DNA of 44,251 nucleotides, taken from the IMG/VR virus record IMGVR_UViG_3300035216_001600, positions 1 to 44,251 of that record. One strand, given 5' to 3'. A program made the position numbers and the translations under genes. The stretch is from a virus. Shown one piece after another: positions 6,399-38,433 of this stretch; positions within the stretch are counted from its first letter, which is position 1; every line of letters starts with the position of its first letter. The notes beneath the pieces were generated by a model, which worked only from the letters and a program-made list of their open reading frames with translations, did not search any database and was not told the origin of the DNA.

Positions 6399-6399
6399 T

Positions 6400-6771: not shown

Positions 6772-6781
6772 TTAAAATACC

Positions 6782-6795
6782 GTGTAATTCTTTAC
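6782..6795 (+). promoter_or_regulatory. Late-type GTGTA motif
   Basis: GTGTAATTC begins exactly 14 bases upstream of the ATG at 6796, with no -35 box. It matches the spacing seen at 3204, 5188 and 10146. Confidence 0.5.
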
Positions 6796-7409: not shown

Positions 7410-7447
7410 ATATTATATTATAAGTTATTATTAAAAATTAAAGTTTA

Positions 7448-7826: not shown

Positions 7827-8363
7827 ATGGCAAACAAGCAAATTAAAGACTTAAATTTAATCGGAAGCAATATTGACGCAGCTTCAGATTTCTTGATCAT
7901 ACAAAAGGCGGATGGCTCAACATATAAAGTAACCGTCGATCAACTCATAAACTCTAGCACAACAGTTTCTTATGGATCTTCGACCGGCGCACCAACTGTT
8001 ATCTCAGAAGACTGGGTGGATGGAGTCGATAAAACAATCACTGTAACTAATATGTTTGACACTACTTCTGCAGGAGTATTAAATATGAGAGTCTCGCAGC
8101 GTGAGACCTTTGGAACCGACCAATTAGTCAACCATGTCATAACCAAAGTCGCTGGATTGAATATAATTTCTTTTGGTGGGCAATCGATAACAGTGGGGGG
8201 ATCAGAGATACAAATACAGTCAGGACTAACGGTCCCGGCACACGGTCAGAGAAGAAAGTTACTTATGCATGTATCTTGCACGAAAAACTCTTTAATCATC
8301 AGAACTCAGCGTGGCATCCAAAAATGCGGGCTGACTGGACAAATCTCAATCGTGCCAAGTTAG
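7827..8363 (+). CDS. Putative virion structural protein (178 aa)
   Basis: The N-terminus (KQIKDLNLIGSNIDAASDFL, IQKADGSTYKVTVDQL) matches a pattern common at the start of phage fibre and decoration proteins, where a short stretch names a state and then 'D.fLiiqkaDGsTykvt'. The remainder is predicted beta-rich. The length is 178 residues. It is preceded by a late-type motif and followed by the separately promoted metalloprotease gene. A structural or fibre-associated role is likely. Confidence 0.65.
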   Translation: MANKQIKDLNLIGSNIDAASDFLIIQKADGSTYKVTVDQLINSSTTVSYGSSTGAPTVISEDWVDGVDKTITVTNMFDTTSAGVLNMRVSQRETFGTDQLVNHVITKVAGLNIISFGGQSITVGGSEIQIQSGLTVPAHGQRRKLLMHVSCTKNSLIIRTQRGIQKCGLTGQISIVPS

Positions 8364-8374
8364 AAAATATAATC

Positions 8375-8403
8375 TTGACTTGTCTCATAATATATGAGAT
8401 AAT
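8375..8403 (+). promoter_or_regulatory. Sigma70-type promoter for the metalloprotease
   Basis: TTGACT (8375-8380), a 17-bp spacer and GATAAT (8398-8403) precede the ATG at 8410 by six bases, so the transcript would be essentially leaderless. It is one of only two host-type promoters seen in the rightward half. Confidence 0.7.
8383..8399. promoter_or_regulatory. Operator-like inverted repeat in the promoter spacer
   Basis: TCTCATA and TATGAGA form a perfect 7-bp inverted repeat separated by three bases. It fills the promoter spacer and touches the -10 box of the metalloprotease gene. It could bind a dimeric repressor, host or phage. Confidence 0.45.
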
Positions 8404-8409
8404 TCATAG

Positions 8410-9912
8410 ATGAGATATTATTTACTACTTACATTTTTTTATTTTAATTTATTTGCGAATTCTTATGAAACGATTCATAATAGCGGATCGTCTGATAATA
8501 GACTAGATTTAGTATTTATTGGTGATAGGTATTTCGCTGATGAGATGGTTGATTATGAAAAAGATGTTGAAACCATATGGTCGGGGATGCAAAGCAACTA
8601 TGCCTTCTGGAATAGGTATAAAAATTTTGTTAATGTTCATAGAATAGACCTTGTTAGCGCTTTAAATAATCCAGACGATATAAAAGACGTTAACAATTCT
8701 GCATTTGGGCTTGATTTTAATCTTGGATATTGGGATGGCTGGAATGATTGGTTGAAATGCTTATCGATCACAGATGAGCTCAACATAGGGAATGAATGCA
8801 CTACCATTTTAACGAATAGGGTTTTTGGGCTCGGTACAGCACTCGACAGAAGCTCTACAAGCTTAATCTATGCTGCACCATGGACGAGTATAGTGGCTCA
8901 TGAAATAGGGCATACCCTGGGCATGGCGGGAGATGAATACCGAACTACTATACAAGAATATATGTATGATTATGCTTTTAATATGGCAAGATCATCAGAA
9001 GAAGCAAAACGGAGATGGGGTCACTGGATTGGATACAAAGATTCTTTTCGTGGATATGAAATTAATGAACCTCATCAAAAAGAAGGAGCAAATTATTTTA
9101 AACCAACATCGTATGACGGATTAATGAACAACTCAAATACCGGAGATTTTCACGCGGTAAATAGAGAGCAAATTATTCTGCAGCTTTATAAATATGTTTC
9201 GCCAATAGACAGCCATACAGAAACAAACTCTAGCGTAAATAACACCCACACTTTAGAAATTAATGTTGTAGATTCTAGTGTGGTCGATATTGCGTGGATT
9301 ATTGATGATAGTATCGTATCAAGCGAATCAACCCTACAAATTAGCCAATTAAATCTATCCCAGGACACATTAATTTATGGGTGTGCATGGGATAACTCCT
9401 TAAATACAGATTACCAAGAAGATGATCGCGGGGGATGGATCAGGAACGATGAACATAATCGAACTTTCAGAATATTATCTTGGCAATTTACAACCGACAA
9501 CTCAATCAAAGAAATTCATTCTCAGTCAAGCAATAAAGATTACCTTTCCTTGGTTCTCGAAACAACAACCGCAGTCCAGTATTTTAATCAAGAATTATTG
9601 TCTAAATCTGCTGGCCCTGATGTAAGCAATGCACGGTTTTCAGGAAACTCCCAGTCAGCTACCCAGTCAGCTATCCAGGAAGTTGAAGAGAAAGTTGTCT
9701 CGCTTGGATGGCAGAGAACTTGGCTTGGAGATTATTTACCATTCTCAAATGGGTGGATTTACCACGCAAAAATCTACTGGATGTATATCCAGCCAGATAG
9801 TCAAGATGGAATATGGGGTTATTTTCCGAACTATGGATGGATGTGGTCAAACCCTAGGATATATCCTTATTTTTACGCAAACAGCACTAAAGAATGGATA
9901 TATTTTAATTAA
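8410..9912 (+). CDS. Secreted M64-like zinc metalloprotease with surface tail
   Basis: This is a 500-residue secreted protein. The first 16 or so residues (MRYYLLLTFFYFNLFANS) form a signal peptide. The metalloprotease core has HEIGH at residues 164-168 and continues to GDEY at 174-177, as in M64 (IgA-peptidase-like) enzymes whose motif is HExGHxxxxLxDEY. The region DNRLDLVFIGDRYF near 29-42 also fits that family. The last 70 residues are rich in Trp/Tyr (GWIYHAKIYWMYIQ, WGYFPNYGWMW), a tail I associate with verrucomicrobial surface proteins. It has its own sigma70-type promoter among late genes, like a moron. It may cut host or competitor surface proteins. Confidence 0.8.
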   Translation: MRYYLLLTFFYFNLFANSYETIHNSGSSDNRLDLVFIGDRYFADEMVDYEKDVETIWSGMQSNYAFWNRYKNFVNVHRIDLVSALNNPDDIKDVNNSAFGLDFNLGYWDGWNDWLKCLSITDELNIGNECTTILTNRVFGLGTALDRSSTSLIYAAPWTSIVAHEIGHTLGMAGDEYRTTIQEYMYDYAFNMARSSEEAKRRWGHWIGYKDSFRGYEINEPHQKEGANYFKPTSYDGLMNNSNTGDFHAVNREQIILQLYKYVSPIDSHTETNSSVNNTHTLEINVVDSSVVDIAWIIDDSIVSSESTLQISQLNLSQDTLIYGCAWDNSLNTDYQEDDRGGWIRNDEHNRTFRILSWQFTTDNSIKEIHSQSSNKDYLSLVLETTTAVQYFNQELLSKSAGPDVSNARFSGNSQSATQSAIQEVEEKVVSLGWQRTWLGDYLPFSNGWIYHAKIYWMYIQPDSQDGIWGYFPNYGWMWSNPRIYPYFYANSTKEWIYFN

Positions 9913-10102
9913 TATTTTTTTTACTTTTTATTCTTTTAATTTCATCTGGTAATATTTTAATTACCTTGTCTGTTTTATTGTCCATCATTAATTCTGCTGG
10001 AGTTGATCCATCTAGTTTGGCATTTTCTGATTTTAGCCAGCATGTTGACTGGTATGAGTTTAAGCTTTTACTAAGAAGTTGTAGTATTGATTTTTTTGAC
10101 AT
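9905..10102 (-). CDS. Small DUF2384-like (Xre/MbcA/ParS tail) protein (65 aa)
   Basis: The product has 65 residues. The core WLKSENAKLDGSTPAELMMD fits the pattern W-L-x-x-x-N-x-x-L-x-G-x-T-P-x-E-L seen in the C-terminal domain of Xre/MbcA/ParS antitoxins, but there is no helix-turn-helix partner domain and no adjacent toxin. It might be a stand-alone regulator or an anti-toxin decoy. It overlaps the end of the metalloprotease gene by eight bases, in convergent orientation, and has a GTGTA motif 15 bases upstream. The family assignment is tentative. Confidence 0.5.
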   Translation of the reverse strand: MSKKSILQLLSKSLNSYQSTCWLKSENAKLDGSTPAELMMDNKTDKVIKILPDEIKRIKSKKNIN

Positions 10103-20902: not shown

Positions 20903-21412
20903 ATGACAGACGAAATGAACGAAACCAAAGCCGACTCAAACTATAAAAAAGTAAAATCAGAACTTTTTCATATTTGGAAAAAAGCCAGATTGCTTTACGA
21001 CATGATCACTGAAGAAAAAGACCTGCACGATTCGGTAAAGAAAAATATCACTTCTGCATACGAAGCTATTGATGAATCTATAAGATATATTGAGTATGAT
21101 GAGATATTCCCAAATAAAAAAGAGGAAGAGCAAGAAGATAATGAAAATAATTTTTTAACGAATCAGGACAAAAGGTATCCTGTGCCAGTCAGTTCAGAAA
21201 GCGGTGATCAGTTCGTTACAAGGTGCATTTTAGACGCTAATATGAAAAAAAGATATCCAGTACAATCAGACAGGTTTCAGGCATGTATGCAAGTGTTTAA
21301 CTCTAACAAGGGACAGCCTGGTTTAAGCCAAAATCCTGGAGAAAAATTCGAAGATCCTATGAAGCCTAATTCTCCCGAAATAAGCGACCCAATTAAGCCT
21401 CTTCTTCCTTGA
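20903..21412 (+). CDS. Hypothetical protein at the end of the head operon (169 aa)
   Basis: The protein has 169 residues: a helical N-terminal half (YKKVKSELFHIWKKARLLYD), an acidic linker (NKKEEEQEDNENN), and a C-terminal part with two similar motifs, KRYPVPVSSESGDQFVTRCI and KRYPVQSDRFQACMQVFN, each with one Cys. This duplicated K-R-Y-P-V segment is distinctive but not recognised. The gene ends the rightward half; the ClpC-like gene overlaps its end by 20 bases from the opposite strand. The function is unknown. Confidence 0.6.
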   Translation: MTDEMNETKADSNYKKVKSELFHIWKKARLLYDMITEEKDLHDSVKKNITSAYEAIDESIRYIEYDEIFPNKKEEEQEDNENNFLTNQDKRYPVPVSSESGDQFVTRCILDANMKKRYPVQSDRFQACMQVFNSNKGQPGLSQNPGEKFEDPMKPNSPEISDPIKPLLP

Positions 21413-23858
21413 TTTTATAAACAACCTCTCCTTTATTAAGGGAGAAGCTTATTGACTGATTCTCTGTAAGATCCTTGTTTAAAAGAAGGGTTGATAGTTT
21501 GTTTTCTATATTTTTTTGAATCAATCTTTGTATTGGTCTTGCGCCCATTTTTTCTTTCTCTGCTTGCTCTGATATATGCTTAATTAAAGAGGGGGTTGAG
21601 GATATCTTTATTTTTTTATTATTAAGTTTTTCTTGTATTTTAGATACTTCTAGCCTTGTTATCTTTATTAAGTCTTGTATAGTGAAGTTATCAAACATGA
21701 TTATCTCATTTAGTCTATTTAGAAATTCAGGCTTGAAAAAGACTTTTAGTTCTTCCTTTAGCTTATCTTTAGCGTGAGACGCCGAATGCCCAAAGCCTAT
21801 TGAAGGTTTTGTGATTTTTTCGCTACCTACGTTTCCTGTAAGTATAATTATACAATTATTAAAATTAACCCTACGACCCGAGTTGTCTGTTACAAAGCCC
21901 TCTTCAAGAATTTGCAACAATATGTTTAAGACGTCTGGGTGAGCTTTCTCTACCTCGTCGAATAGCACCACGCTGTATGGGTTTCTTCTGACTTTTTCAG
22001 TTAACTCTCCGCCTTCCTCATATCCCACGTAACCGGGGGATGCCCCAATTAATCTACTCGCAGAAATTTTCTCTGAGAATTCGCTCATATCTAACTGGAT
22101 GAGCTTGTCTTCTCCTCCGTATACGAATTTTGCTATACATTTTGCGGTATGAGTTTTGCCTGTACCGCTTGCCCCAACTAACAAAAAACTTCCAACTGGC
22201 TTTCTTGAGTCTTGAAGGCCTGATTTTGATCTCAGAATTGATTCAGAAATCTCCTTAATAGAATCTTTTTGGCCAATAATTTTTTTATTTAAATCCTTAG
22301 CTAAGGAGAGAAGCTTTGAGGACTCTTTTGTAGACATTTGAGTTACAGGCACGCCCGTCCTTGCTGAAACCACCTCAAATATATCTTTTTTGGTTACTTG
22401 TATTTTAGATTTTATAGTTTTTTTGGCCCATTTTTCTATTACTCTATCATACTCTTCCAGTAAAAATATCTGCTCATCTTCAATCATATCTCTCGAAGCT
22501 CCAATCATTTCAACATTAGCCTCCCTGATGCTTAAATCTTGTAACTTTTTTTCTATTTCTTTGGCCGCGTCCGGTCTTTGGATGTTTTTTATTTTAACCT
22601 TAGATCCGGCTTGATCCATGACATCTATCGCTTTGTCTGGAAATTGTTTATCGATCATGTACCTAGATGTTAATTCGATAATCAAATCAAGAGTTTCTTC
22701 TGGGTAATTTATACTATGAAACTGCTCGTATTTCTTTTTTATTCCCAAGATTATTTGTTTAGTTTCTTCTGCGTTTGGTTCGTTAACCTTTACTGATTGA
22801 AATCTTCTGTCCAAAGCTCCATCCTTAAGTATAGTTTTCTTGTACTCGTCTTGGGTTGTAGCTCCAATGCATTTCAACTCCCCTCTAGCCAATAAGGGTT
22901 TGAGCATGTTTGCTGCATCCATTGAGCCTTCGGCCGCTCCAGCGCCAACGAGGGTATGTATTTCGTCAATAAATAGGATTATGTTTTTATTTTTTTTAGC
23001 CTCATCTATTATGTTTTTTAACCTCTCTTCGAATTGTCCCCTGTATTTAGTTCCAGCTATTAAAGATCCTAGATCTAAAGAGTATATTATTTTTCCTAGT
23101 AAAAAATCAGGAGATTCAGCCCTTACTATTCTTTGAGCTAGCCCTTCGACTATGGCCGTCTTTCCAACACCAGGCTCACCTAATAAAACAGGGTTGTTTT
23201 TAGTCCTTCTGCACAAAATCTCACATACGTTGCCGATCTCTTCCTCTTTACCTATTATATTGTCAAACTTTCCTTTCTCAGCTAGAGAATTAAGGTTCAA
23301 TGCGTGTTTCTCTAGGTTTTGTAGGCTAGTGTCCTTTGCTTTTGGCTTTGACGGGAAATAATAACTCTCCTTTTTCTCGGTTTTGTTTTCTTTGGATAGG
23401 TGCAAGTATTCCCTTACTTCTGATATAATATCTTCTTCTGATGCATTGAAAGATTTAAAAAAACCAGGGATAGACGACCCTTCAAATTTTAATAATGCTA
23501 ATAATATATGCTCTAGCCCTACGTATTCATGATCTAGTTTTTCGCTTATTGACGCGGAAACTTTTAGTATTAAATGAAATTCTTCATCGTAGGAAGGGCT
23601 TTCTTCCACCTCATGCGAAAGATCTAGATGCTCGGATTCCTGCGATAGGGAATGTTCTATTTCGTCTTTTAATGCGAGTTGATCAATGTTTAATAAATAC
23701 AATATTTCACTAAGTATTCCTGCATTTAGCTTTACCATCCCGTAGAATAAATGTTCTATGGAGACAAATTCGCTTTTATATTTTTCGGCAACTTTTTTCG
23801 CTTCGTTTATCGCTTGCTGCGCACGTGGAGTAAAGTTTGGCTTTGGGGTCATCTTCAT
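21393..23858 (-). CDS. ClpC-like AAA+ unfoldase
   Basis: The protein has 821 residues, the length of bacterial ClpC. Two N-terminal Clp repeats (TPRAQQAINEAKKVAEKY; HEYVGLEHILLALLKFEG) precede AAA+ domain 1 (GEPGVGKT near 227), a short middle segment and domain 2 (GASGTGKT near 561). A loop SIGFGHSA near 685 matches the position of the ClpP-docking loop (I/L/V)-G-(F/L), so it may work with host ClpP. A GTGTA motif lies 9 bases before this ATG, or 15 before a second in-frame ATG at 23852. It lies 14 bp downstream of the polymerase gene on the same strand. A phage-borne ClpC could redirect host proteolysis. Confidence 0.88.
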   Translation of the reverse strand: MKMTPKPNFTPRAQQAINEAKKVAEKYKSEFVSIEHLFYGMVKLNAGILSEILYLLNIDQLALKDEIEHSLSQESEHLDLSHEVEESPSYDEEFHLILKVSASISEKLDHEYVGLEHILLALLKFEGSSIPGFFKSFNASEEDIISEVREYLHLSKENKTEKKESYYFPSKPKAKDTSLQNLEKHALNLNSLAEKGKFDNIIGKEEEIGNVCEILCRRTKNNPVLLGEPGVGKTAIVEGLAQRIVRAESPDFLLGKIIYSLDLGSLIAGTKYRGQFEERLKNIIDEAKKNKNIILFIDEIHTLVGAGAAEGSMDAANMLKPLLARGELKCIGATTQDEYKKTILKDGALDRRFQSVKVNEPNAEETKQIILGIKKKYEQFHSINYPEETLDLIIELTSRYMIDKQFPDKAIDVMDQAGSKVKIKNIQRPDAAKEIEKKLQDLSIREANVEMIGASRDMIEDEQIFLLEEYDRVIEKWAKKTIKSKIQVTKKDIFEVVSARTGVPVTQMSTKESSKLLSLAKDLNKKIIGQKDSIKEISESILRSKSGLQDSRKPVGSFLLVGASGTGKTHTAKCIAKFVYGGEDKLIQLDMSEFSEKISASRLIGASPGYVGYEEGGELTEKVRRNPYSVVLFDEVEKAHPDVLNILLQILEEGFVTDNSGRRVNFNNCIIILTGNVGSEKITKPSIGFGHSASHAKDKLKEELKVFFKPEFLNRLNEIIMFDNFTIQDLIKITRLEVSKIQEKLNNKKIKISSTPSLIKHISEQAEKEKMGARPIQRLIQKNIENKLSTLLLNKDLTENQSISFSLNKGEVVYKIKEEEA

Positions 23859-23872
23859 GTTTTACACGCTAT

Positions 23873-26434
23873 TTACTTAACTTCAGACATTTTCATATAT
23901 ATCTTTTCGTCCATAATTTTAATTGAGTCTAGAAATATTATATCCTCAGCTTTTCTTCCATAAGCTATTACAATGTTCTTTTTTGCTGGAGCTTTTTCGT
24001 TTTTTTCAAAATACCTATCATAGAAATTCCCTCTCCTGGAATTTAATAACATCGCATCCCATTTTCCGTTTTCATCTGACATCGAGAGCTTTATGTATTT
24101 ATTTCCATTTCTTGAAGTCGCTTTTAAACAATCATCCACGACTCCTATAAATTTACCTCCATCATCCTTATCCATTAGTTCTAGATCTCTTGAATCCTTC
24201 AGGTCTTTATAAACATCCTTGAAGCAGTTTTTTAATTTCGAGCTGTGGCTGTACCCTAGTAATTCATTCTCAAAGTACCAGTTTGCAAACTTTTCGTAGG
24301 ATTTATTCTTATCGTAAATAGATTTATATAGGTCGTATTTCTTTTTAAACGTCTTAAATCTTGATTCTTTCATCAGTGGTCTTCCGTCGTCCCCTACCAT
24401 ATTTTGACTTTTAGCGTCAGCTATGCAGTTTAATAATTTAAAGTCATATTTTTCTCCAATAAGTATAAAGTTCCTCTTTTCTCTGTCTGTTAATAGGTTG
24501 AAAGCTTGAGCTTCTAAAGCCATTAGAGACCTGTTCAAGCCCTTGCTCTCGAGAGCTCCGGCTTGACATAGCGATGATAATATTCCTATGTTTAGCCCTG
24601 CTTGTTTTGCAGATAAGAAAACATCATACTTTGTCGGGTTTTCGGTGGATCTAAAATCCCTTAGTGATTTTAGGGATTTTTCGCTAACCCCCTTAATGCT
24701 ATTAAGTCCAAACCTTATATCTTTACCTTCTGTAGAGAAATCCATTTTGGATTTTGCTAAATCTGGAGAAAGGAGCTTTATTCCAAAGTGAGATAGTTCT
24801 CTAGATATTGCAGCTATCTCTTCTTGTGGGGCCGGCTCATACTTAGTCATCTTTAACAACGACATGAAAAACTCTTGAGGGTAATTAAATTTAAGATAAG
24901 CGGTCCACGCAGCCAGCGTGGCGTACGCCAACGAGTGGGATTTATTAAAAGAATAGTTTGCACTGTCCTCTGCAACCCTCCATAAAACTTCTCCAACTTC
25001 TGTTGGTAAATCATTTTCTATTATTTTTTGCTGAATTTTAGCTTTCCACGCAGGCATTTGATCAACTTTCTTTTTACCAACTATCCTTCTTAATTGCTCG
25101 GATTCGTCCAAAGTGAATCCTACTTTAACCGCCATCTGCATTAACTGCTCTTGATAAAGAGGTATTCCTCCAGTATAATCCAAAACGTCTCTAAAGAATT
25201 CATGAATCACTTGAGACTCTCCTGTTTTAGAGTATGCAACATATGCATCCAAAAAGTCTAGGGCTCCAGGCCTTCCAATAGCGACTACAGCACTCAACTG
25301 CTCAAGACTTTTAGGCTTGATCTTTTTACACACCTTAAAGTTTGTGTCTGACTCTAGCTGAAATAGTCCATGAGGTGTTTTTAGCGACTGCAAAGGTTTA
25401 AAAATCTTTGTGTCGTTTAGGTCTATTTTAGATATATCTTGATCAATTGTCTTGCATACGTCATAGATAACACTTAATGTTCTTAATCCAAGAATATCAA
25501 ACTTAACCATTAATTCTGATACCCAGTTCATGTCGTAACCCGTAACTAAGTTTCCGTCGTTCGTTTTCTGAACAGGGCAAATATCAGTTATTGTGCTGTG
25601 GGAAATAGCTATTCCGCTGGGATGCACTCCTGTGTTTTTATTTAAACCTTCGAGCTTTAATGCGATTTCAAAAGTTTCTGGATTTTCAGAGGCCCAATCT
25701 GCGAATTTTTCGCTTTCTTGTATTGCCGAAAGTATTGGAAGCACTACGCCAAATTTCTTTGGTATGGTCGTGCTAACCAAGTTAACGTCTTGCTCGCTCA
25801 GTTCTCCTACTATTTTCCCACACTCCTTGACGCATAATTTGCCACTTAAAGTATTTAGGGTTAATATTTTAGCTGTTCGAGAAGGGTGTTTCTTTTCTAT
25901 GTACTCTATAACCTCAATCCTTCTTTCATAAGCTATGTCGTTATCAACATCCGCCAGAAGACTCCCGTCCAAAAAGGTCACTCCATCCTGTAGTGTTTTT
26001 TTTGCTCGGCTTTTAGAAACAAATCTTTCAAAAAACAAGCTATACTTTACGGGATCAACATCTGTTACCCCTATTAAGTATAAAACAAGCGACCCCGCAG
26101 CAGATCCCCTTCCCGGGCCTGTGGGTATATCTTCCTCGTGGCAAAAATTAATTATATCCCAGTTTAATAAAATATAATCAATAAAACCTAATTCTTCTAA
26201 GATTTTTAATTCTGACTTTGCTCTGTCGAAATAATCTTTCTTGTTTTTAAATTTATCAATCCCTTTATCGTAAACACCCTTATGGCATAGCTTTCTAAGA
26301 AAGTCAAAGTTAGATATTTTATTATCCGCCTCTAGCATATCGTAGTACTTTTGCTCTATTTGGATTTCTGGAAGGCGCACGCCTGGAGGGCAGCAATCCT
26401 TGTATTCTGTAAATTGTGTTGTAAAGCTGCTCAT
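23873..26434 (-). CDS. dnaE: DNA polymerase III alpha, catalytic part without PHP domain
   Basis: This 853-residue protein is a C-family replicative polymerase lacking its N-terminal PHP domain, which is encoded separately at 27567-28334. The palm has GPGRGSAAGS near 102 and the DVDND Asp cluster near 160. LFQLESDTNF, AIGRPGALDF, a helix-hairpin-helix region and a C-terminal OB fold (FIGVVDDCLKATSRNGNKYI) follow. The start at 26434 overlaps the exonuclease stop (ATGA); an alternative ATG lies at 26449. With the exonuclease it should form the phage replicase. Confidence 0.9.
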   Translation of the reverse strand: MSSFTTQFTEYKDCCPPGVRLPEIQIEQKYYDMLEADNKISNFDFLRKLCHKGVYDKGIDKFKNKKDYFDRAKSELKILEELGFIDYILLNWDIINFCHEEDIPTGPGRGSAAGSLVLYLIGVTDVDPVKYSLFFERFVSKSRAKKTLQDGVTFLDGSLLADVDNDIAYERRIEVIEYIEKKHPSRTAKILTLNTLSGKLCVKECGKIVGELSEQDVNLVSTTIPKKFGVVLPILSAIQESEKFADWASENPETFEIALKLEGLNKNTGVHPSGIAISHSTITDICPVQKTNDGNLVTGYDMNWVSELMVKFDILGLRTLSVIYDVCKTIDQDISKIDLNDTKIFKPLQSLKTPHGLFQLESDTNFKVCKKIKPKSLEQLSAVVAIGRPGALDFLDAYVAYSKTGESQVIHEFFRDVLDYTGGIPLYQEQLMQMAVKVGFTLDESEQLRRIVGKKKVDQMPAWKAKIQQKIIENDLPTEVGEVLWRVAEDSANYSFNKSHSLAYATLAAWTAYLKFNYPQEFFMSLLKMTKYEPAPQEEIAAISRELSHFGIKLLSPDLAKSKMDFSTEGKDIRFGLNSIKGVSEKSLKSLRDFRSTENPTKYDVFLSAKQAGLNIGILSSLCQAGALESKGLNRSLMALEAQAFNLLTDREKRNFILIGEKYDFKLLNCIADAKSQNMVGDDGRPLMKESRFKTFKKKYDLYKSIYDKNKSYEKFANWYFENELLGYSHSSKLKNCFKDVYKDLKDSRDLELMDKDDGGKFIGVVDDCLKATSRNGNKYIKLSMSDENGKWDAMLLNSRRGNFYDRYFEKNEKAPAKKNIVIAYGRKAEDIIFLDSIKIMDEKIYMKMSEVK

Positions 26435-27078
26435 ACCTCTATTTCCCATATCATTTTTTTAAAAACTTCATAATTAACTCTAATATCATATAATGCGTCA
26501 TGTAATTTTGTTGCGTCGAAAGGAACATCGAAGTCCTTGCAGCATTGTTTAAGGTTGCAGGATAAGCCTCTTTCTATTAAATGGTTCAATCTGTACTGCC
26601 AGGATAGAAAATTATCTTCATTACTTAATTTAATTTGTTTCTTCACTGCTTTGGCTAGAGATAAGGTATCTACTAGGTTATTCATATACGAAAAGTCTGA
26701 CTTTGCTTTGGGGTCGATCAATTTCCTGTGAAGGTTATGCATATATACATCAAACCCGAGTAAATTGTGGCCAACCTTAATGTAGGAATCGTCATACAGG
26801 TATTTTTCAAAATCTTCAAGAGCTATCTTGGGATCCACTGCATTCTTTTTGTATTTTGCTTGAGTGAATCCTGTGATTTTTGCCGCCTCCGGAGAAACTC
26901 TCAAGTCGTCCCATTTAAGCCAGTAGTCTTTTTCCTCTATAATTTTATTGTTTTCTATAACAAGAAACGCCAGTTGCCATGGTTTGTTGTGTCCAGAAAT
27001 TAAATTTAAATTACATGTTTCGTAATCGAAAAGTAAATATTTTTGTTTATTTTTAAATCTGAGTAGTTGTTCCTTCAT
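26431..27078 (-). CDS. DnaQ-like 3'-5' proofreading exonuclease
   Basis: This is a DEDDh exonuclease of 215 residues. FDYETCN near 18-24 holds the first Asp-Glu pair, VGHNLLGFDVYM near 102-113 the second motif, and LHDALYDIRVN near 193-203 the His and last Asp. It would remove mispaired bases for the DnaE-type polymerase, whose gene overlaps its end by four bases. It overlaps the SET gene start region by 26 bases. A separate exonuclease fits with the apparently degenerate PHP domain. Confidence 0.85.
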   Translation of the reverse strand: MKEQLLRFKNKQKYLLFDYETCNLNLISGHNKPWQLAFLVIENNKIIEEKDYWLKWDDLRVSPEAAKITGFTQAKYKKNAVDPKIALEDFEKYLYDDSYIKVGHNLLGFDVYMHNLHRKLIDPKAKSDFSYMNNLVDTLSLAKAVKKQIKLSNEDNFLSWQYRLNHLIERGLSCNLKQCCKDFDVPFDATKLHDALYDIRVNYEVFKKMIWEIEV

Positions 27079-27577
27079 GATTTTTCCAGTATTGTTCTCC
27101 GTAGTTTATTAATAATTCTTCTCCTTTTTTTATTTCTTTATTTGCTGTGTATTCAAACATCATATTTTCAACATCAACTTCATAGTTTATATTATTGTTT
27201 TTTGCGTGGTTATATATCATTCCGTTTCCGAGTACTGTCGCTGAATTAAAAAGCTTGTTTATATCTGCGTATCCCAGGTCTTGTAGGAAGTTTTTTAAAT
27301 GTTCTGTAATTTCTTCGTCTTCAAACATAGAGAGGAGTCTGATCTTAAATGAAATCTTTTCGTTTTCTTCTTTAGATAAGCTTGTATCAAAAAAAATATT
27401 AAACGCAAACCTTGCCAGCTCTTTATCTTGCATTTCCCTCATGCATCCAGAAACTATAAAGTGGCACTGCTCTATTAGCTCCCCTTCATCGATGTCTTCT
27501 GCCGCAAAAACGCCCCTGCCTTTGATTTTTGATTTATCAACATATACTTTGCTTGGTTGTATTAACTTATATTGCAT
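27053..27577 (-). CDS. SET-domain protein (lysine methyltransferase-like)
   Basis: The protein has 174 residues with start MQYKLIQPSKVYVDKSKIKG at 27577; a longer frame from 27622 would overlap the PHP gene further. SET motifs are visible: GRGVFAAEDIDEGELIEQC (cofactor-binding GxG), LGNGMIYNHAKNNN (the N-H of the SAM pocket) and GEELLINYGEQY (the catalytic Tyr). It would transfer methyl groups to Lys of a protein. It lies inside the replicase operon between the two DnaE halves, so the replicase itself is a possible substrate, but that is conjecture. Confidence 0.8.
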   Translation of the reverse strand: MQYKLIQPSKVYVDKSKIKGRGVFAAEDIDEGELIEQCHFIVSGCMREMQDKELARFAFNIFFDTSLSKEENEKISFKIRLLSMFEDEEITEHLKNFLQDLGYADINKLFNSATVLGNGMIYNHAKNNNINYEVDVENMMFEYTANKEIKKGEELLINYGEQYWKNHEGTTTQI

Positions 27578-28334
27578 TTTCTTGCTCCTTCCAGCTTTCG
27601 AAGCAAAACTCATCGCTTCCAAAATGGTCTAAATTAGGCTTTGATAAAGTTTTATTTCCAAAAGTTCTTCCTGTTATACATTTATATGTCTGAAGTGCAG
27701 AAACATCTTTTTTCTTTCTGTAATAAATACTTTTTACCATTTCTGTTTTGCATTTATTTTCTTCTGCAAATTTAATAACTCTAGATCTTAGTAACAAATC
27801 AAATGGTAGGCTATTATTTTCTATAAAATATACCGGTTTTGTAAAAGAAAAGTTTGGCGTGCAGTTTGAGAATTTTATATTATTATTAAATATAAACGAA
27901 TCATAAAAAGGAATTGCTAATATTAATTTTTTATTATCCCAGTGTTTTTTCAACATCTTTTCATCTACTGAATTAAATGCTTCTGAGTAAGCTTCGCTGT
28001 ATATCGAATTCAATAACTTGCACCCTTCGGAGTTCTTTGCAAAAATAACTATTTTGTGTCTGGATTTTACAGATTCTTCCTTTGGATTTAATTTTGAATC
28101 TTCACACATGTCAATTCTTAACCCAAACACCAATTTGACCGCCATTGACTCGGAAACTTTTTTTGCTTGAAGGAAGCCCGTTAAGGAATCTTCCACCAAC
28201 ACAACCTCTTTTAGGTTATTGTCTTGAGCTATCGAAAAAACACTATCTGTTTTACCGTCGTCTAGTGATGATGGATTGTTTAGCGTTAATATGCTTTTCC
28301 CGATTGAGAAGTGGCTTTTGAATAATGGTATCAT
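27567..28334 (-). CDS. DNA polymerase III alpha PHP-domain part (separate gene)
   Basis: This 255-residue protein matches the N-terminal PHP region of DnaE: FKSHFSIGKSILTLNN at the start, VVLVEDSLTGFLQAKKVSES, LVFGLRIDMCED, KIVIFAKNSEGCKLLNSIYS and closing FGSDEFCFESW. The family's metal-binding H-x-H at the start is K-S-H here, so the domain is probably not an active phosphoesterase. It is the first gene from a strong promoter and overlaps the SET gene by 11 bases. It likely joins the catalytic subunit non-covalently. Confidence 0.75.
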   Translation of the reverse strand: MIPLFKSHFSIGKSILTLNNPSSLDDGKTDSVFSIAQDNNLKEVVLVEDSLTGFLQAKKVSESMAVKLVFGLRIDMCEDSKLNPKEESVKSRHKIVIFAKNSEGCKLLNSIYSEAYSEAFNSVDEKMLKKHWDNKKLILAIPFYDSFIFNNNIKFSNCTPNFSFTKPVYFIENNSLPFDLLLRSRVIKFAEENKCKTEMVKSIYYRKKKDVSALQTYKCITGRTFGNKTLSKPNLDHFGSDEFCFESWKEQENAI

Positions 28335-28341: not shown

Positions 28342-28370
28342 ATTTTACCAGAATTCCATTAAGTTGTCAA
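28342..28370 (-). promoter_or_regulatory. Sigma70-type promoter for the replicase operon
   Basis: On the minus strand TTGACA (28365-28370), a 17-bp spacer and TAAAAT (28342-28347) lie seven bases before the ATG at 28334. The transcript should be nearly leaderless and cover PHP, SET, exonuclease and dnaE. Confidence 0.8.
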
Positions 28371-31455: not shown

Positions 31456-32754
31456 CTAGTTGATTATGTTCATTAATGGTTTGCCGTCATGCGCCACTTT
31501 AAATGGTCTGCCAGAAGGAGATGTTTGTATTTTATTTAAAGGTAATCCCATCGCGTATGCTATAGTAGCATTCAGAGAGGCTGGGTCAATAAATTTCCCC
31601 TCTGCTGGATTTCTTCCTAGATCATCCATTTTTCCGTAAACCGTTCCTCCTTTGATTCCTCCGCCAGCGAGAAAAGCTGTAAATCCATAGGGCCAATGAT
31701 CTCTTCCGTCGCGCTCATTTATCTTAGGCGTCCTACCAAATTCTGAGGTTAAAACAACCATGGTTTCTTTAAGCAGTCCACGCATTTCAAGATCAATTAA
31801 AAGAGCGCTTAGAGCTTTATCAATATCTGCGCAATTGTCCGCAACAGATTCAAAGTTGTTATCGTGGGTGTCCCACCCTCCTCGACTAACTTCTACATAA
31901 CGAACTTGATTTTCTATTAAGCGACGAGCAAGCAAGCACCCCTGCCCGAAGTTAGTTTTTCCATAAAGTTCGTGCATTGACTCTGGCTCAAGAGTTATAT
32001 CAAAAGCTTTTAAGTCCTCGCTTCGCATGAGTTTGACCGCGTCTTTATAAAGATCAGAGTAAGCTCGAACCTGCTTCTGATCATATTGATTAAGGTAGGA
32101 GGAGTTCATTTTTTGAGCCATAGATAAACGACCCCCGAATCGACTTTGGTCAATATAGTCTGCCAGCTTACTGTTTGCTAGGCCACTACTTGGATTGCCT
32201 ATTGGGAGAGGCCCAAATTTAGACTCAAGAAACCCGGCTCCCGCCGGAGTAGATCCAATTTGCACATTTGACGGGATGGTACTATTTATCGATCCCGAAA
32301 GTTTTGACACCCAACTTCCGAATGTAGGGTGAGCAATCGTGCCTCGCTTTAAATAACTTGTATGCATCAAGTAACTCGCTTGTTCGTGAGCTCCTTGGCT
32401 TGTTGACATTGTTCGAATGATTGCAGCATTATGCATGTGTTTTGCGGTTAACGGAAGATTCTCAGAAAGAATAACCCCATCAGCAGAAGTCGGAATAGAT
32501 TTTGTTGGCCCTTGTATCTCTGGCACATCTGGGTTTGTTCCAAATGTATCGAGATGAGACATCGCCCCACTCATATTTAAGTAAATAACATAACGGGCGG
32601 TGGCAGGCCTAGGGCCAGTAGTAAAAGCTTCAGCGCTGTTATGGATGTAAGAACCAGCCATTGGCAGGAGCCCAACTCCAAGACATGCCTTGGCCGCGCT
32701 TGTAATAAACTCTCTTCTTTTTAATTCGTCTAATTTTTTAATATCTGTTTTCAT
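31456..32754 (-). CDS. DUF1501 family secreted protein
   Basis: This 432-residue protein belongs to the DUF1501 family, common in Planctomycetota and Verrucomicrobiota and structurally like sulfatase/alkaline phosphatase enzymes. A twin-arginine signal (KRREFITSAAK) is at the N-terminus. Family motifs are visible: MSGAMSHLDTFGTNP, VSRGGWDTHDNNF and LTSEFGRTPKINERDGRDHW, which carry putative metal-site Asp and His residues. The ATG at 32754 lies one base after the upstream stop; a TTG at 32766 is a weaker alternative. Next to DUF1549/DUF1553, as in PVC genomes. The biochemical role is unknown. Confidence 0.85.
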   Translation of the reverse strand: MKTDIKKLDELKRREFITSAAKACLGVGLLPMAGSYIHNSAEAFTTGPRPATARYVIYLNMSGAMSHLDTFGTNPDVPEIQGPTKSIPTSADGVILSENLPLTAKHMHNAAIIRTMSTSQGAHEQASYLMHTSYLKRGTIAHPTFGSWVSKLSGSINSTIPSNVQIGSTPAGAGFLESKFGPLPIGNPSSGLANSKLADYIDQSRFGGRLSMAQKMNSSYLNQYDQKQVRAYSDLYKDAVKLMRSEDLKAFDITLEPESMHELYGKTNFGQGCLLARRLIENQVRYVEVSRGGWDTHDNNFESVADNCADIDKALSALLIDLEMRGLLKETMVVLTSEFGRTPKINERDGRDHWPYGFTAFLAGGGIKGGTVYGKMDDLGRNPAEGKFIDPASLNATIAYAMGLPLNKIQTSPSGRPFKVAHDGKPLMNIIN

Positions 32755-32755
32755 T

Positions 32756-34900
32756 TTATTTAACAAACATAAATTCGTGACTATTTATTAGAGTCCAAAC
32801 TATGTCCTTATGGTAATCCTTGGTGTTTAGTTTTTTAATTGTTTCTTTAAAATCTTTTAGTTCTTTAGAATTAGGTTTTCTTTGTAAAATGGCAAGAAAT
32901 GATAAATTAATCCTTTCCTCCATGCTTGAAGCTTTGAGGATTTCACTGAGGGTGGCGGACTTTTTATTATTAATAATATTCTTTTCGACATAGCCATTGA
33001 TTAAAGCCAGTACTTGATTGACTGCCGCTTCCTTATGAGATACTTGTATTTGGTCACGAGGAGACCCTCCGAACTGTAAAATCATATGCCCTCTGGGCGC
33101 AGGATCCCCAACCTCAGAAGCCCTTAGGGAGTTTATATCGCGAGTTAAAAACCCTTTTCGTTTAGGGCTCGTCTTGCTGCTTGACTCCTGTTTTTTCATT
33201 GGGGTCATAGGGATAGCTTCTTGCTGTTTAAGTTTGGGTGCGATTTCTTGAAATATTTCTTCAGCCGTCATCTCTTTGTATCTAAGGTATTCCTCAAAAC
33301 CTTCTTCAGGAGCTCGAGAATTAATTCTATTATCTAAATCGTAAAAATTTAGAGTCACTAATGAATCCCAAATTTGCTCAGCGCTCATTCTTTGCATTAC
33401 GGGGCCTTGATAGAAGTAAGGTTTATTTCCTTGAGTTTTAGATATTACCCACTTTACCTCTGGAGGTAGCGAGTCATCTTTTGAGTCTCTAGGGATTATA
33501 TCTCCTACTGGAACCTCTCTTTGGAAAGCTTTTGTATTATAAATAATTCTTAAAAATTCTTTTGTGTCAAAGTCTAAGGCGACCATCAACTTTTCTAAAT
33601 GAAGCATCATTTCTGGATGAACCGGTAGCGTGTCATCATATATATTATCCACAGGCTCTATTAAACCATATCCAAAAGCAGATTTCCACAGACGATTCGC
33701 TATCACAGTTGAAAACCTAGGGTTAGTAGCAGACGCTAACCAACTAGCATAAGAAGTGCGGGAACCTTTTTGTTCGAGGTTTTCATCTAATTCTACGGCT
33801 AAGCCAAAAATAGTTTTAGCTTTTAATTTTTGCCCAGGTTTTGCGTTGTCGTATTGGTAATCCTTGGGTAAGGAAATCGACCCTTTACCTAAGTCGTCTA
33901 GACCTGGGGACAGTAAGTTTTGCACTGGAAGGAAAGCTCTTCGAATTTTATTTCTGTCTTCTGGATTTTCTTTCTGTAAGGCTCTTATGAGTTTTGAAAG
34001 TTTATTAAGTTCTTCATCTTTTCTTTTCATTCTTTCTGCTCCATTGGTAAATGCAGCCATTTCGTAAAACTGTTTTTGTGTCCAGCGATCGAAGGGGTGA
34101 TCGTGGCATTGAGCGCACTCCAAGCTTGTGCCGAGAAACACACGCACCGTGTTCGACATGTTATCTAGCCCCATACCTTGGTCTCGGTAAAAATAACCAA
34201 CAGCCCCGTTATTTATTTCCCACATAGGCCCTGTAGAAGAAAGCATTTCCTTAACCCAAGTATCGTAGGGCTTGTTTGAGGAAATAGAATCTTTTATGTA
34301 TTTTATAAATGGATACCCATCTGAACCTTGATTTCCTACTCGAGTTTTCGCTCGAAGTATATCGGCCCAATAGATATACCAATTTTTATCGTACCCTTCC
34401 GAGCTTAAAAGATTATCAATTAGTTGACTTCTGGATTTTTTATCCCTGTTTCCAAGAAAATCCTGAGCTTCTTTTAAGGTGGGTATCCTTCCAATAATCT
34501 TCAGGTAAGCTCTTCGGAGGAAAGCCTCGTTGGATATTTCTTTGTTGGGCCTTTCGCCGTAAGACCTTAGTTTCGATTCAATAATTTTATCTATAAATTC
34601 TGAATTAATTTTTAAATCTTTTTCTGAAAGAGGTTTCTTGAATGTGGGTAGAGATTCATGGTTAGGGGGAAAGTTGTTTTTTACGAAAGCTTGATCATCT
34701 TCTGTGAATATATCTAGTTTTATTCTAAATAATTGCATGTCATCTGATCTTTTAAGCAAGACATCCCCATTGTCGAAGTATTTTACTATCGATCCATTTA
34801 TTTTTTGCTTACTCTTTGAGTAAAAATCTCTATTAATTGAAGAGAAAGACGGTATTGATGAAAGTATTGATAAAAGTGTAATAATTACTAACTTATTCAT
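32756..34900 (-). CDS. DUF1549/DUF1553 (PSCyt2-PSD1) secreted protein
   Basis: The protein has 714 residues. A signal peptide (MNKLVIITLLSILSSIPSFS) is followed by an SHD1-like segment (GSIVKYFDNGDVLLKRSD). DUF1549 then follows (SNEAFLRRAYLKIIGRIPTL) with the typical CAQCHDHPFDRWTQ, which carries C-x-x-C-H. DUF1553 ends the protein (NPRFSTVIANRLWKSAFGYG; GPVMQRMSAEQIWDSLVTL; LQFGGSPRDQIQVSHKEAAV). The N-terminal PSCyt1 haem domain found in many relatives is missing. It is the first gene of the cassette and has a GTGTA late-type motif exactly 14 bases upstream of its ATG. The biochemical role of the family is unknown. Confidence 0.9.
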   Translation of the reverse strand: MNKLVIITLLSILSSIPSFSSINRDFYSKSKQKINGSIVKYFDNGDVLLKRSDDMQLFRIKLDIFTEDDQAFVKNNFPPNHESLPTFKKPLSEKDLKINSEFIDKIIESKLRSYGERPNKEISNEAFLRRAYLKIIGRIPTLKEAQDFLGNRDKKSRSQLIDNLLSSEGYDKNWYIYWADILRAKTRVGNQGSDGYPFIKYIKDSISSNKPYDTWVKEMLSSTGPMWEINNGAVGYFYRDQGMGLDNMSNTVRVFLGTSLECAQCHDHPFDRWTQKQFYEMAAFTNGAERMKRKDEELNKLSKLIRALQKENPEDRNKIRRAFLPVQNLLSPGLDDLGKGSISLPKDYQYDNAKPGQKLKAKTIFGLAVELDENLEQKGSRTSYASWLASATNPRFSTVIANRLWKSAFGYGLIEPVDNIYDDTLPVHPEMMLHLEKLMVALDFDTKEFLRIIYNTKAFQREVPVGDIIPRDSKDDSLPPEVKWVISKTQGNKPYFYQGPVMQRMSAEQIWDSLVTLNFYDLDNRINSRAPEEGFEEYLRYKEMTAEEIFQEIAPKLKQQEAIPMTPMKKQESSSKTSPKRKGFLTRDINSLRASEVGDPAPRGHMILQFGGSPRDQIQVSHKEAAVNQVLALINGYVEKNIINNKKSATLSEILKASSMEERINLSFLAILQRKPNSKELKDFKETIKKLNTKDYHKDIVWTLINSHEFMFVK

Positions 34901-34932: not shown

Positions 34933-35946
34933 TTAGAAGTCGTCCTCAAGAGATCCGCTTTGTTGATATTCCCTAACCCTCCTCTCGAAGAAGTTTCCCA
35001 TTGCTTGGACATCGACCACTTCTCCTAGCCAGGGGAAGGGGTTTTTGTCGCTTGGGAATCTATAGTCTAACCCTATCGCTTCTAGCCTGCGATTACCGAT
35101 ATAGTGCATATAATCAACAAACATATCTGCGTTCAAACCTAGAATGCCAGTTGGAAGAACGTCGTGGGCATAAGCTATTTCCAGCTCTACGGCTTTTTTC
35201 ATATGCTCAACAAATTCGTTTTGCATTTCTTTTGTCCAGATTCCTGGCTCTTGCTCTATAATTGTATTGATCAAGTAAGTACCAAATGCTATGTGAGAAC
35301 TTTCATCCCTTAGCGTATACTTAATTTGGTCAGAAACGCCTTGCAGTTTGTTTTGCCTACCTAACGCAAGAAGCATTGCAAAGCCGCTAAAAAAGAACGT
35401 TCCTTCGCACACTATCCAATATGTTAAGAAGTTTCTCAATATTTCCTGCTTTCCCTTGATTGAATTTGCGTCAAAATCTTGCGCGCTAATATCGTTGGTT
35501 ATTTGCATTAAGAAATCATCTTTAGCTTTTATGCTTGGAATGGTTTCGTAAGCGTTAAAAACTTCTTCTATATCGAGGTCAAGGCTATCGCAAATATAAA
35601 CTACCGTGAGGTTGTGAAGACTTTCTTCAAACGCTTGACGCAATATGTACTGGCGGCACTCAGCGTCCGTAACATAGCGAAAGGCAGATAACAAAAGATT
35701 ATTACCAACCAAAGACTCAGATCCAGCAAAGAACCCAAGGCAGCGTTTAACAAGTAATTTTTCATCTTCTGTAATTTCATTGTTTTTCCATTGTTTAATG
35801 TCAGCCTGCATTGAGATTTCTGTTGGCATCCAATTGTTTGCGCAACTTTTTAAGAATAAATCCCATGCGTATTTATGCTTATGGGGTAATATTCTATTTA
35901 CGCCCGCCACGTCTTCAGTTAATAGTTTTCCTGTTTTATCTTGCAT
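34933..35946 (-). CDS. nrdB: Ribonucleotide reductase small subunit, class I (Ic-like)
   Basis: This 337-residue protein is a class I R2 subunit. Metal ligands are visible: Glu77 (SES), Glu108 and His111 (ESLH), then CEGTFFF and RDESSHIAFG supplying the other Glu and His residues. The radical position, four residues after His111, is Val115 rather than Tyr; Tyr is used in class Ia and Phe in the Chlamydia class Ic enzyme, with which it also shares the following YICDSL. A Mn/Fe cofactor instead of a tyrosyl radical is therefore likely. It has its own promoter and follows nrdA by 51 bp. Confidence 0.9.
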   Translation of the reverse strand: MQDKTGKLLTEDVAGVNRILPHKHKYAWDLFLKSCANNWMPTEISMQADIKQWKNNEITEDEKLLVKRCLGFFAGSESLVGNNLLLSAFRYVTDAECRQYILRQAFEESLHNLTVVYICDSLDLDIEEVFNAYETIPSIKAKDDFLMQITNDISAQDFDANSIKGKQEILRNFLTYWIVCEGTFFFSGFAMLLALGRQNKLQGVSDQIKYTLRDESSHIAFGTYLINTIIEQEPGIWTKEMQNEFVEHMKKAVELEIAYAHDVLPTGILGLNADMFVDYMHYIGNRRLEAIGLDYRFPSDKNPFPWLGEVVDVQAMGNFFERRVREYQQSGSLEDDF

Positions 35947-35952
35947 AATTAT

Positions 35953-35981
35953 AATATATCATATATTAATAACGAAGTCAA
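35953..35981 (-). promoter_or_regulatory. Sigma70-type promoter for nrdB
   Basis: On the minus strand TTGACT (35976-35981), a 17-bp spacer and TATATT (35953-35958) lie six bases before the ATG at 35946. The small subunit can thus be made apart from nrdA, with an almost leaderless transcript. Confidence 0.75.
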
Positions 35982-35997
35982 CCTTTAAAAAGATCAA

Positions 35998-38433
35998 TTA
36001 TTGACAACTTTCGCACGTTTCTCCATTTTTCATAGCTTCGATACTGCAAGCTGACCCTTCTTCTGCCTTGTCTGATTCTGATGTTGATTTTTCAACTTTA
36101 GACGCAGCCCTATTCCTTAGGTAGTAAGTTGTTTTTAACCCAGCCTCCCAGCAAGACATATAAACATCATTTAAGTATTTTAAGGATGTCTCTTTATTGT
36201 ATAAATTAAAACTTACAGCTTGATCTATCCATTTTTGCCTAATTGCATTGCACTCTATTAACTTGAACATATCTCTATCGAATGCTGTTTTGTATTTTAA
36301 CTTTATCCACTCAGGGATATCTCCGTTTAATACAGACAAATCTCCGTCAGCGTCCTTAACTAACTTTGCAACATTAGCGTTCCATATACCTTCTTTTTTC
36401 ATGTCATTTATGAAATGCTGATTAGTTATGTAAAAATTACCGCTCTTATTTTCGTAAACAAATAGCACAGAGAAGTTTGGTTCAACACTTTGTTCTACTC
36501 CGTTTATGTATCCAATGGTTGCTGTAGGAGCAATAGCCATCACATTTGAGTTTCTCATGCCATGTTCGGCAATGTGTTCTCTAACCTCGCTCCAATCTAA
36601 TAAGGACTCAAGGTTTGTTTTCTTGCCTTTGTATTTCATTAGATCTGCGTAAGAATCGATCGGTAGCTTATCTTGACTCCATAGAGACCCTTTATATGTT
36701 TTATAAGGCCCTTTTTCTTTGGCGAGGCGAGAGCTGGCAAGAATAGAGTGATAAGAATAAAACTCGAACAATTTATCGTTAAATTTAACAGCTTCATCGC
36801 TATCGATATTTATATTCATTCGATGCAGTACGTCATGCAAGGCCATCATCCCTAAACCAATAGGTCTGTTTTTCAAATTAGAATTGCTCGCTTCTTTTGT
36901 TGGATAGAAGTTTAAGTCTATTACATTGTCTAGAGCTCTAATTGCTGTGTGAATTGTATTCTTTAATTTGTCGTAATCAATTGTATCATCTTCATTCATG
37001 TGATTAAGAATATTGATTGATCCGAGATTACAGACCGCTGTTTCGCCTATTTCTGTTTTTTCGCCTTTATCGTACTTCGAGGCTTTTGTGTGAAGGGTGA
37101 TTTCTGTGCAAAGATTACTGCTATGAACTACTCCTTCGTGTTGATTTGTATAGCGTATATTGCAGGGGTCTTTGAATGTATTCCATGGGTGAGAGGTTTC
37201 AAATAAGACTTTAAGCATTTTTTTCCAAAGCTCTTTTGCTGGAGTCACGCGATAGTTTTTAATCAAACCTTCTTCTGCGCCTCGGCATAAATCAGAGTAT
37301 CGCTTGTCAAATTCCTTGCCGAAGCAATCGTGAAGAGTTTTGCCTTCTTCGTCTTTAGTCTCCTTTGGATCAAAGAAATACCAAGCGTCTTCAGACTGAA
37401 CTCTGCGCATGAACTCATCAGGAATCCAAGAGGCAGTGTTCATATCGTGACACCTCAAGCGGTCATCTCCAGTATTCCTTCTTAAATTAAGGAAGTCTTC
37501 GTAGTCCAAATGCCAAGGCTCGAGATAGGCGCATCCCGCTCCAGGTCTTTTTCCTCCTTGATTTACCGCCACAAGAAGATCGTTATAAATTTTAAGCCAA
37601 GGTATTAAGCCTCCAGATATGCCATTCGTACCTTTAATGTGGGAGCCTGAAGATCTAAAGGGTGTTACGTCAAACCCTAATCCTCCTGCAAATTTTGATT
37701 TTCGAGCTTCTTGCCATGCGCCATCAAAAATGCCATCTATACTGTCATCAAAGGTATTGAGGTAACAAGAGCTTAATTGAGAATGAGTTGTGCCGCTATT
37801 GAATAGAGTCGGGGTAGAAGAAGTGTATAAAAACTGACTAAACATATCGTATATTTTAATTGCGCTTTCTTCTTTGTTTTCTTCGTTTAAAGATAGCCCC
37901 ATTGCAACTCTCATCCAGAAGCACTGTGGAGCTTCCATAATTTTATCGTCGTGCCTAATAAAGTATCTATCAGTTAAGATTTGAATACCTAAGTATTTGA
38001 AGGATTCGTCTCTTCTGATTCTTAATGCTTCAGATAGCTTTGAAAGGTCAAATTCAAGCATCTTGGGATTGAGTTTTTCTAGCTTTACTAACTTTTTTAT
38101 ATTTTGTATAAAGCTCTTTCTGTATTGAAGTTTAAATGTATCTGAGTCAACTCCTTCTTTAAACACTTCTTTGTATACAGTATTCAACAATAATCTCGCA
38201 GCGACAAAACTATAATTTGGTTCTTTTTCTATTTTTTCTCTAGCCGAAAGGGTGAGGGCTGTATCTATTTCGCTAGTTGTTATTTTATCGAATAGCTGTA
38301 ATTGCGCATCCAGAAGAACTTCGCTAACAGAGGTGTCTTCGATTCCCTCGCACGCTCGCTCTACGTTTGCGTTGATTTTTTCTACTAAAAAAGGTTGTAG
38401 TCTACCGTTTCGTTTTTTTACGTTTATGTTCAT
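35998..38433 (-). CDS. nrdA: Ribonucleotide reductase large subunit, class I
   Basis: The protein has 811 residues. The N-terminal ATP-cone (VKKRNGRLQPFLVEKINANV) binds the allosteric nucleotide. The catalytic core has LSSCYLNTFDDSIDGIFDGA, the active-site motif NLCTEI, and ends with the redox pair CESCQ at the tail. It reduces ribonucleotides to deoxyribonucleotides with NrdB at 34933-35946, and so feeds phage DNA synthesis. A strong promoter lies directly upstream. Complete length; no intein or frameshift. Confidence 0.95.
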   Translation of the reverse strand: MNINVKKRNGRLQPFLVEKINANVERACEGIEDTSVSEVLLDAQLQLFDKITTSEIDTALTLSAREKIEKEPNYSFVAARLLLNTVYKEVFKEGVDSDTFKLQYRKSFIQNIKKLVKLEKLNPKMLEFDLSKLSEALRIRRDESFKYLGIQILTDRYFIRHDDKIMEAPQCFWMRVAMGLSLNEENKEESAIKIYDMFSQFLYTSSTPTLFNSGTTHSQLSSCYLNTFDDSIDGIFDGAWQEARKSKFAGGLGFDVTPFRSSGSHIKGTNGISGGLIPWLKIYNDLLVAVNQGGKRPGAGCAYLEPWHLDYEDFLNLRRNTGDDRLRCHDMNTASWIPDEFMRRVQSEDAWYFFDPKETKDEEGKTLHDCFGKEFDKRYSDLCRGAEEGLIKNYRVTPAKELWKKMLKVLFETSHPWNTFKDPCNIRYTNQHEGVVHSSNLCTEITLHTKASKYDKGEKTEIGETAVCNLGSINILNHMNEDDTIDYDKLKNTIHTAIRALDNVIDLNFYPTKEASNSNLKNRPIGLGMMALHDVLHRMNINIDSDEAVKFNDKLFEFYSYHSILASSRLAKEKGPYKTYKGSLWSQDKLPIDSYADLMKYKGKKTNLESLLDWSEVREHIAEHGMRNSNVMAIAPTATIGYINGVEQSVEPNFSVLFVYENKSGNFYITNQHFINDMKKEGIWNANVAKLVKDADGDLSVLNGDIPEWIKLKYKTAFDRDMFKLIECNAIRQKWIDQAVSFNLYNKETSLKYLNDVYMSCWEAGLKTTYYLRNRAASKVEKSTSESDKAEEGSACSIEAMKNGETCESCQ

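Follow-up and report, generated by a model that had tools for sequence, protein, structure and literature searches.

Separate PHP and catalytic genes for a DNA polymerase III alpha in a lineage of phages

The stretch of DNA analysed here (the window) is the whole of IMG/VR virus record IMGVR_UViG_3300035216_001600, 44,251 nucleotides long, and this 44-kb record is probably a fragment of its genome. It encodes a DNA polymerase III (Pol III) alpha of the DnaE type in two genes, one for a 255-amino-acid (aa) protein that comprises the PHP domain and one for an 853-aa catalytic protein without it, and a gene for a DEDDh 3'-5' exonuclease lies between them. The three genes are separate, and follow one another in the order PHP, exonuclease, polymerase, in all 155 complete loci that we collected from what is a large lineage of uncultured phages. 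All members of the C family of polymerases have been described as having four domains, PHP, palm, thumb and fingers, in one polypeptide (PMC3666897), and none of the 155 loci has this single-chain architecture of canonical DnaE and PolC. Our findings point to a split Pol III alpha in which the PHP protein is probably a non-catalytic structural subunit bound to the catalytic protein, with proofreading presumably carried out by the separate exonuclease.

Two proteins that tile one DnaE chain

The 853-aa protein belongs to the C family, having palm, fingers and HhH regions homologous to Pol III alpha together with three catalytic aspartates. It matches DNA_pol3_alpha (PF07733, 2.8e-60), the finger domain (PF17657, 7.4e-34) and HHH_6 (PF14579) above the Pfam cut-offs, and its profile aligns with residues 383-953 of DnaE from Thermus aquaticus (Taq; E 2.9e-114). 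The AlphaFold2 model (predicted local distance difference test, pLDDT, 86.6) matches Taq DnaE (2hpi) over residues 286-1123 at Z 35.9 and the E. coli DnaE templates over residues 270-910 (2hnh) and 259-1074 (5fku). Its LADVDND and KFDILGL motifs align with PDIDTD and KMDFLGL of Taq, which hold the catalytic aspartates, and D162, D164 and D313 are invariant in 36 sequences. Taken together, the two proteins have the domain order of canonical DnaE from E. coli and Taq (PHP, palm, thumb, fingers, HhH, OB) as well as the catalytic Asp residues. They differ from it in that PHP has a gene of its own and in that the C-terminal domain is apparently missing, because the match of the catalytic protein stops at Taq residue 1123-1124 of 1220.

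The smaller protein scores just below the Pfam gathering score (24.1 bits vs 26.4), matches PHROG 405 (DNA polymerase, 7.7e-13) over profile positions 61-294, and in a profile comparison aligns with Taq DnaE 49-250 (E 0.0037-0.0053). Its AlphaFold2 model (pLDDT 89.4) matches residues 7-262 of Taq DnaE (2hpi) at Z 23.4 and residues 6-251 of E. coli DnaE at Z 22.9, whereas the best free-standing PHP enzyme reaches Z 12.4. Membership of another PHP family, such as the histidinol phosphatases or RNase AM, was rejected on this difference, since their Z does not exceed ~12, compared with 23 for DnaE. A preliminary description of this locus, made from sequence without database searches, had called the 255-aa protein a PHP domain, and both profile and fold now place it with the DnaE type.

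Together, the models of the two proteins cover DnaE end to end, except for about 25 residues at the border of PHP and palm and the C-terminal domain. Thus the break falls at a domain border, with no intein half on either side. An intein or intron was rejected because the two termini lie about 25 template residues apart with no extra sequence, and because the window contains neither a group I or II intron nor any other Rfam match; likewise, the break lacks the intein halves of the cyanobacterial split-intein DnaE. The preliminary claims that the PHP and catalytic parts are separate genes and that no intein halves flank the break are therefore upheld, the former by sequence, fold and comparative data alike.

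The metal site of the PHP protein has decayed. In an active PHP domain of the C family this site reads HHDHEH[C/H]DH (PMC12926913). Some of the 155 loci come from near-identical contigs and a few from duplicates; at 95% polymerase identity they reduce to 85 representatives. The first ligand His is replaced by Lys in 82 of these representatives and the ligand Glu by Arg or Lys in 82, and the DxH site has given way to KSIYY, its D and H being found in none of the 85. Alignment with fused DnaE indicates that the ligand Asp, the His of TDH and the Cys are also lost, while most representatives keep the second ligand His and roughly half keep another. By this count about seven of the nine metal ligands are gone, a wider loss than the altered K-S-H motif first noticed, and the protein is predicted to be catalytically inactive. 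An inactive PHP beside a separate DEDDh exonuclease is also the arrangement of E. coli. The loss of PHP ligands in the company of a separate exonuclease is a described pattern (PMC3666897), with which the preliminary remark that the degenerate PHP suits a separate exonuclease agrees.

The exonuclease matches PHROG 192, 'DNA polymerase exonuclease subunit' (5.6e-18), and has the DxE, Exo II and HxxxxD motifs of the DEDDh class; D.ET, GHN..GFD and LHDA..D are kept in at least 90% of the 85 representatives. The window's exonuclease ends 17 residues past its last active-site Asp and so would be unable to dock through an epsilon-like tail. In this it departs from the canonical system and from a bona fide epsilon, which is defined by a C-terminal tail that binds alpha (PMC3666897).

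Conservation in the lineage and precedents in other phages

Searches of viral contigs and genome contigs yielded 162 loci (a few contigs were fetched twice), with catalytic proteins about 51-96% identical to that of the window. The 155 loci with all three genes include the window, and in the other eight a contig end truncates the region. Looking for the split in related phages, as had been proposed, thus uncovered it in every complete locus, and no catalytic protein with complete upstream sequence is without a PHP gene. Distances among PHP proteins follow those among catalytic proteins closely (Mantel r = 0.916; 0 of 2000 permutations). PHP is under purifying selection, with ratios of nonsynonymous to synonymous substitution of 0.015-0.17 in the 10 computable pairs, similar to those of the catalytic protein and the exonuclease.

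Exactly one Pol III core is present in each of 24 related contigs (46-211 kb) that were searched whole. A second intact dnaE, which would have undermined the preliminary description, was found in none of the 24, none of which is certified complete, and the window's own genome is represented by its 44-kb fragment. Among 13 larger related contigs no family A or family B polymerase (PF00136 for B) was found, and 12 of the 13 encode a DnaB-like helicase. Because there is one Pol III core and no family A or B enzyme was found, the split polymerase is the only replicative polymerase detected. The same 13 contigs gave no beta clamp (PF00712) and a single match to the clamp loader (PF13177), below threshold; the phage may rely on the clamp of its host, or its own version may have diverged too far to be detected.

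On a quick maximum-likelihood tree, which has long branches and moderately firm placements, the lineage forms one clade on a long stem, with a Shimodaira-Hasegawa-like approximate likelihood ratio test (SH-aLRT) value of 99. The best matches to the catalytic protein among the phages of the GenBank collection are just ~29-33% identical, and the PHP protein obtains four weak matches only. Two relatives lie in contigs of metagenome-assembled genomes binned as Flavobacteriaceae and Flavobacteriales, where phage contigs can be misbinned. Our literature search, with preprints and most subscription papers outside its reach, found no paper on the split in this lineage.

The split described here is new as a variant fixed across a lineage, though not entirely unprecedented in kind. 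Separate PHP and polymerase genes in Microbacterium phages, including Krampus and AnnaSerena, are remarked upon in one sentence of PMC7302621. These cluster EF phages (Krampusvirus: Krampus, AnnaSerena, Cybele) are the nearest precedent for this break, with a 345-aa PHP protein (gp56) and a 767-aa polymerase (gp57) divided at the same border. Unlike in the lineage described here, gp56 and gp57 adjoin without an exonuclease between them, and the Krampusvirus PHP, judged by eye, keeps its metal ligands (HSHSTYSYMDG, TEHGN, GLEAY, WHMTML, SGC, SSDVHYP). The Krampus polymerase groups with that of Corynebacterium phage P1201 (SH-aLRT 100), away from the lineage (99), so the tree does not join the two by shared descent. 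Because the Krampus type sits elsewhere on the tree, PHP and polymerase have probably been separated at this border at least twice in phages.

Other phages also have a Pol III alpha relative in two parts. In the group 2.2 jumbo phages a minimal Pol III is split inside the catalytic module, into two genes far apart, with no PHP and with a family B polymerase present (PMC7824862), whereas our lineage has PHP and a whole catalytic module, with no family B enzyme found. DnaE also occupies two open reading frames (ORFs) in Cellulophaga phages phiST and phi19:2, Corynebacterium phage P1201 and Rossellomorea phage phiT1, but the break there lies inside the polymerase core (position 145/153 or ~331 of our catalytic-protein profile) and not at the PHP border. 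In phi19:2 (L256, positions 3903-7503), a cultured flavobacterial phage, it lies in the palm, between adjacent ORFs of 525 and 673 aa. The dnaE of Bacillus phage KLEB27-3 is likewise broken inside the core, with an HNH gene in the break. Pseudomonas phage PB1 (Pbunavirus) resembles the lineage in that an exonuclease gene immediately precedes that of the polymerase (gp58-gp57), but PB1, like PolC, keeps PHP and polymerase in one chain. What sets the present lineage apart as new is how large and deep it is, together with its dead PHP, the exonuclease in between and the cargo genes.

Cargo genes and the setting of the operon

The genes of the window's operon (Table 1) are transcribed from the minus strand in the order PHP, SET, exonuclease, polymerase, ClpB-like ATPase, and the first four lie where the preliminary description placed them. 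The start of the SET gene overlaps the PHP stop codon, and the polymerase ATG, from which the 853 aa are counted, overlaps the exonuclease stop as ATGA. A listed TTG start of the SET gene at 27622 is probably unused, because the ATG at 27577 follows AAGGAG. The candidate promoter has 11 of 12 consensus matches; the region holds 42 sigma-70-like promoter matches against 34.2 +/- 5.0 in shuffled sequences, which is weak evidence alone.

Table 1. Features of the window, with positions counted from its first nucleotide
Feature	Position	Strand	Remarks
PHP protein, 255 aa	27567..28334	-	stand-alone degenerate DnaE-type PHP domain
SET-domain protein	27053..27577	-	PF00856, 6.2e-15; cargo gene between PHP and exonuclease
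DEDDh 3'-5' exonuclease, 215 aa	26431..27078	-	PF00929, 8.1e-14
Catalytic polymerase III protein without PHP, 853 aa	23873..26434	-	palm, thumb, fingers, HhH, OB
Candidate operon promoter, sigma-70-like	28342..28370	-	TTGACA, 17 nt, TAAAAT; directly upstream of PHP start codon
ClpB/ClpC-type double AAA+ ATPase, full-length	21393-23858	-	adjoins polymerase downstream
DUF1501 and PSCyt2/PSD1 (DUF1549/DUF1553) genes	31456-34900	-	adjoin one another
Ribonucleotide reductase, small and large chains	34933-38433	-	same strand block; large chain with ATP-cone
TnpB-like protein, 483 aa	40201-41652	-	PF07282; Cas12f1-like TNB domain

Such tight packing is not the rule in the lineage, both junctions being tight in only 31 of the 155 loci. 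The gap between PHP and exonuclease is at least 100 nucleotides (nt) in 70 loci and reaches 1850 nt, and that between exonuclease and polymerase is at least 100 nt in 88 and reaches 1182 nt. The order PHP-SET-exonuclease-polymerase named in the preliminary description is that of the window but only in part that of the lineage: the exonuclease lies between the other two genes throughout, whereas SET occupies the slot between PHP and exonuclease in 17 of the 155 loci only and was rejected as a core part in favour of variable cargo. The window's SET protein carries GRGVFA and INYG motifs, and its PHROG matches are only to families without known function.

Other genes, named by eye, occur as cargo. 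A GMP-reductase/IMP-dehydrogenase-like gene sits in the SET slot in eight loci (L034, L039, L047, L048, L053, L060, L069, L072), JmjC-like genes lie between PHP and exonuclease in two (L044, L069), and an HNH gene is cargo in one. A recurrent protein of ~71 aa (MASLDDIYDMIQKLDD...) is encoded directly upstream of the polymerase, after the exonuclease, in 76 loci (L074-L081 and most of L162-L241), and is a candidate small polymerase-associated factor. In locus L037 the stretch between PHP and exonuclease holds two similar 153-aa ORFs in the opposite orientation (7548-8491, minus strand), and no stop codon interrupts the polymerase frame for ~253 codons before its usual start (9242-10001), so that the protein may be extended at its N terminus or fused to a cargo protein.

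Farther from the operon, the window contains the ribonucleotide reductase, TnpB-like, DUF1501 and PSCyt2/PSD1 genes listed in Table 1. Both the DUF1501 and the PSCyt2/PSD1 families are typically found in Planctomycetes and Verrucomicrobia. Since 9 of 16 related contigs also carry DUF1501, it belongs to the phage group and is not contamination.

Possible roles of the separate PHP protein

We propose that the lineage's replicative Pol III alpha, presumably once encoded by a fused gene, was divided at the border of PHP and palm, leaving the 853-aa protein as the catalytic core. The PHP protein would be an independent subunit that docks at the site occupied by the PHP domain in single-chain DnaE and stabilises the catalytic protein, and the exonuclease encoded between them would act with both and supply proofreading in trans. 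Because of that proofreading in trans, the PHP active site would have been free to decay. The E. coli PHP domain, though catalytically dead, is a main structural element, and its mutation lowers the stability and activity of Pol III (PMC3666897). Several observations weigh against our proposal. The PHP and polymerase genes can be separated by as much as ~1.8 kb that contains further genes, and PHP diverges faster than the catalytic protein (mean distance 0.50 vs 0.40), two points that count against physical coupling; moreover, the exonuclease lacks the C-terminal tail that attaches epsilon to the PHP domain in E. coli.

The first two of these observations, along with the lost catalytic residues, would also be expected if the free PHP protein served elsewhere, for example as a regulator or host-interaction factor, and the catalytic protein worked without a PHP domain. 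We consider this unlikely, since PHP retains the DnaE-specific fold from end to end, is invariably encoded in this gene block, co-diverges with the catalytic protein under purifying selection, and is never absent where the sequence upstream of the polymerase is complete. Alternatively, the chief function of PHP may be that of an adaptor recruiting the exonuclease, and perhaps cargo proteins, to the catalytic protein, giving a three-chain core that echoes the domain order of PolC. The constant gene order fits this idea, as do the docking of epsilon on the E. coli PHP domain (PMC3666897) and the insertion of the exonuclease within the PHP domain of PolC (PMC3919608). However, the exonuclease lacks an epsilon-like tail, and the resemblance of the gene order to PolC proves nothing alone, because the fused DnaE of PB1 also has an exonuclease gene directly upstream and the order thus needs no separate PHP; a mainly adaptor function therefore seems improbable to us. 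Breaks in other phage dnaE genes, such as that of KLEB27-3 with its HNH gene and those inside the core in phiT1 and P1201, raise the further question of whether the present break is an artefact of assembly or frameshift, or is repaired after transcription or translation by an intron or a trans-splicing intein. Assembly and frameshift errors were rejected given the same separate genes in 155 contigs, and with intact genes in between, starts and stops proper to each gene, no room for intein halves and no Rfam match, we regard any explanation of this kind as extremely improbable.

Beyond the structural role that we favour for PHP, it is conceivable, though we hold this only tentatively, that the inactive PHP is an exchangeable third core subunit through which the exonuclease is recruited, docking in a manner unlike epsilon, and that the release of PHP let the operon accept regulatory or nucleotide-metabolism cargo. 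The role of an inactive PHP domain has so far been argued from point mutants (PMC3666897). In this lineage that role is directly testable, because the cellular relatives are single chains. With a separate PHP protein that is under strong selection, binding, stability, activity and exonuclease recruitment can each be tested by adding or omitting one protein. More broadly, the lineage shows that a fixed break between genes, placed at a domain border, is compatible with a working replicative polymerase, an arrangement that, on the present tree, phages have probably reached at least two times.

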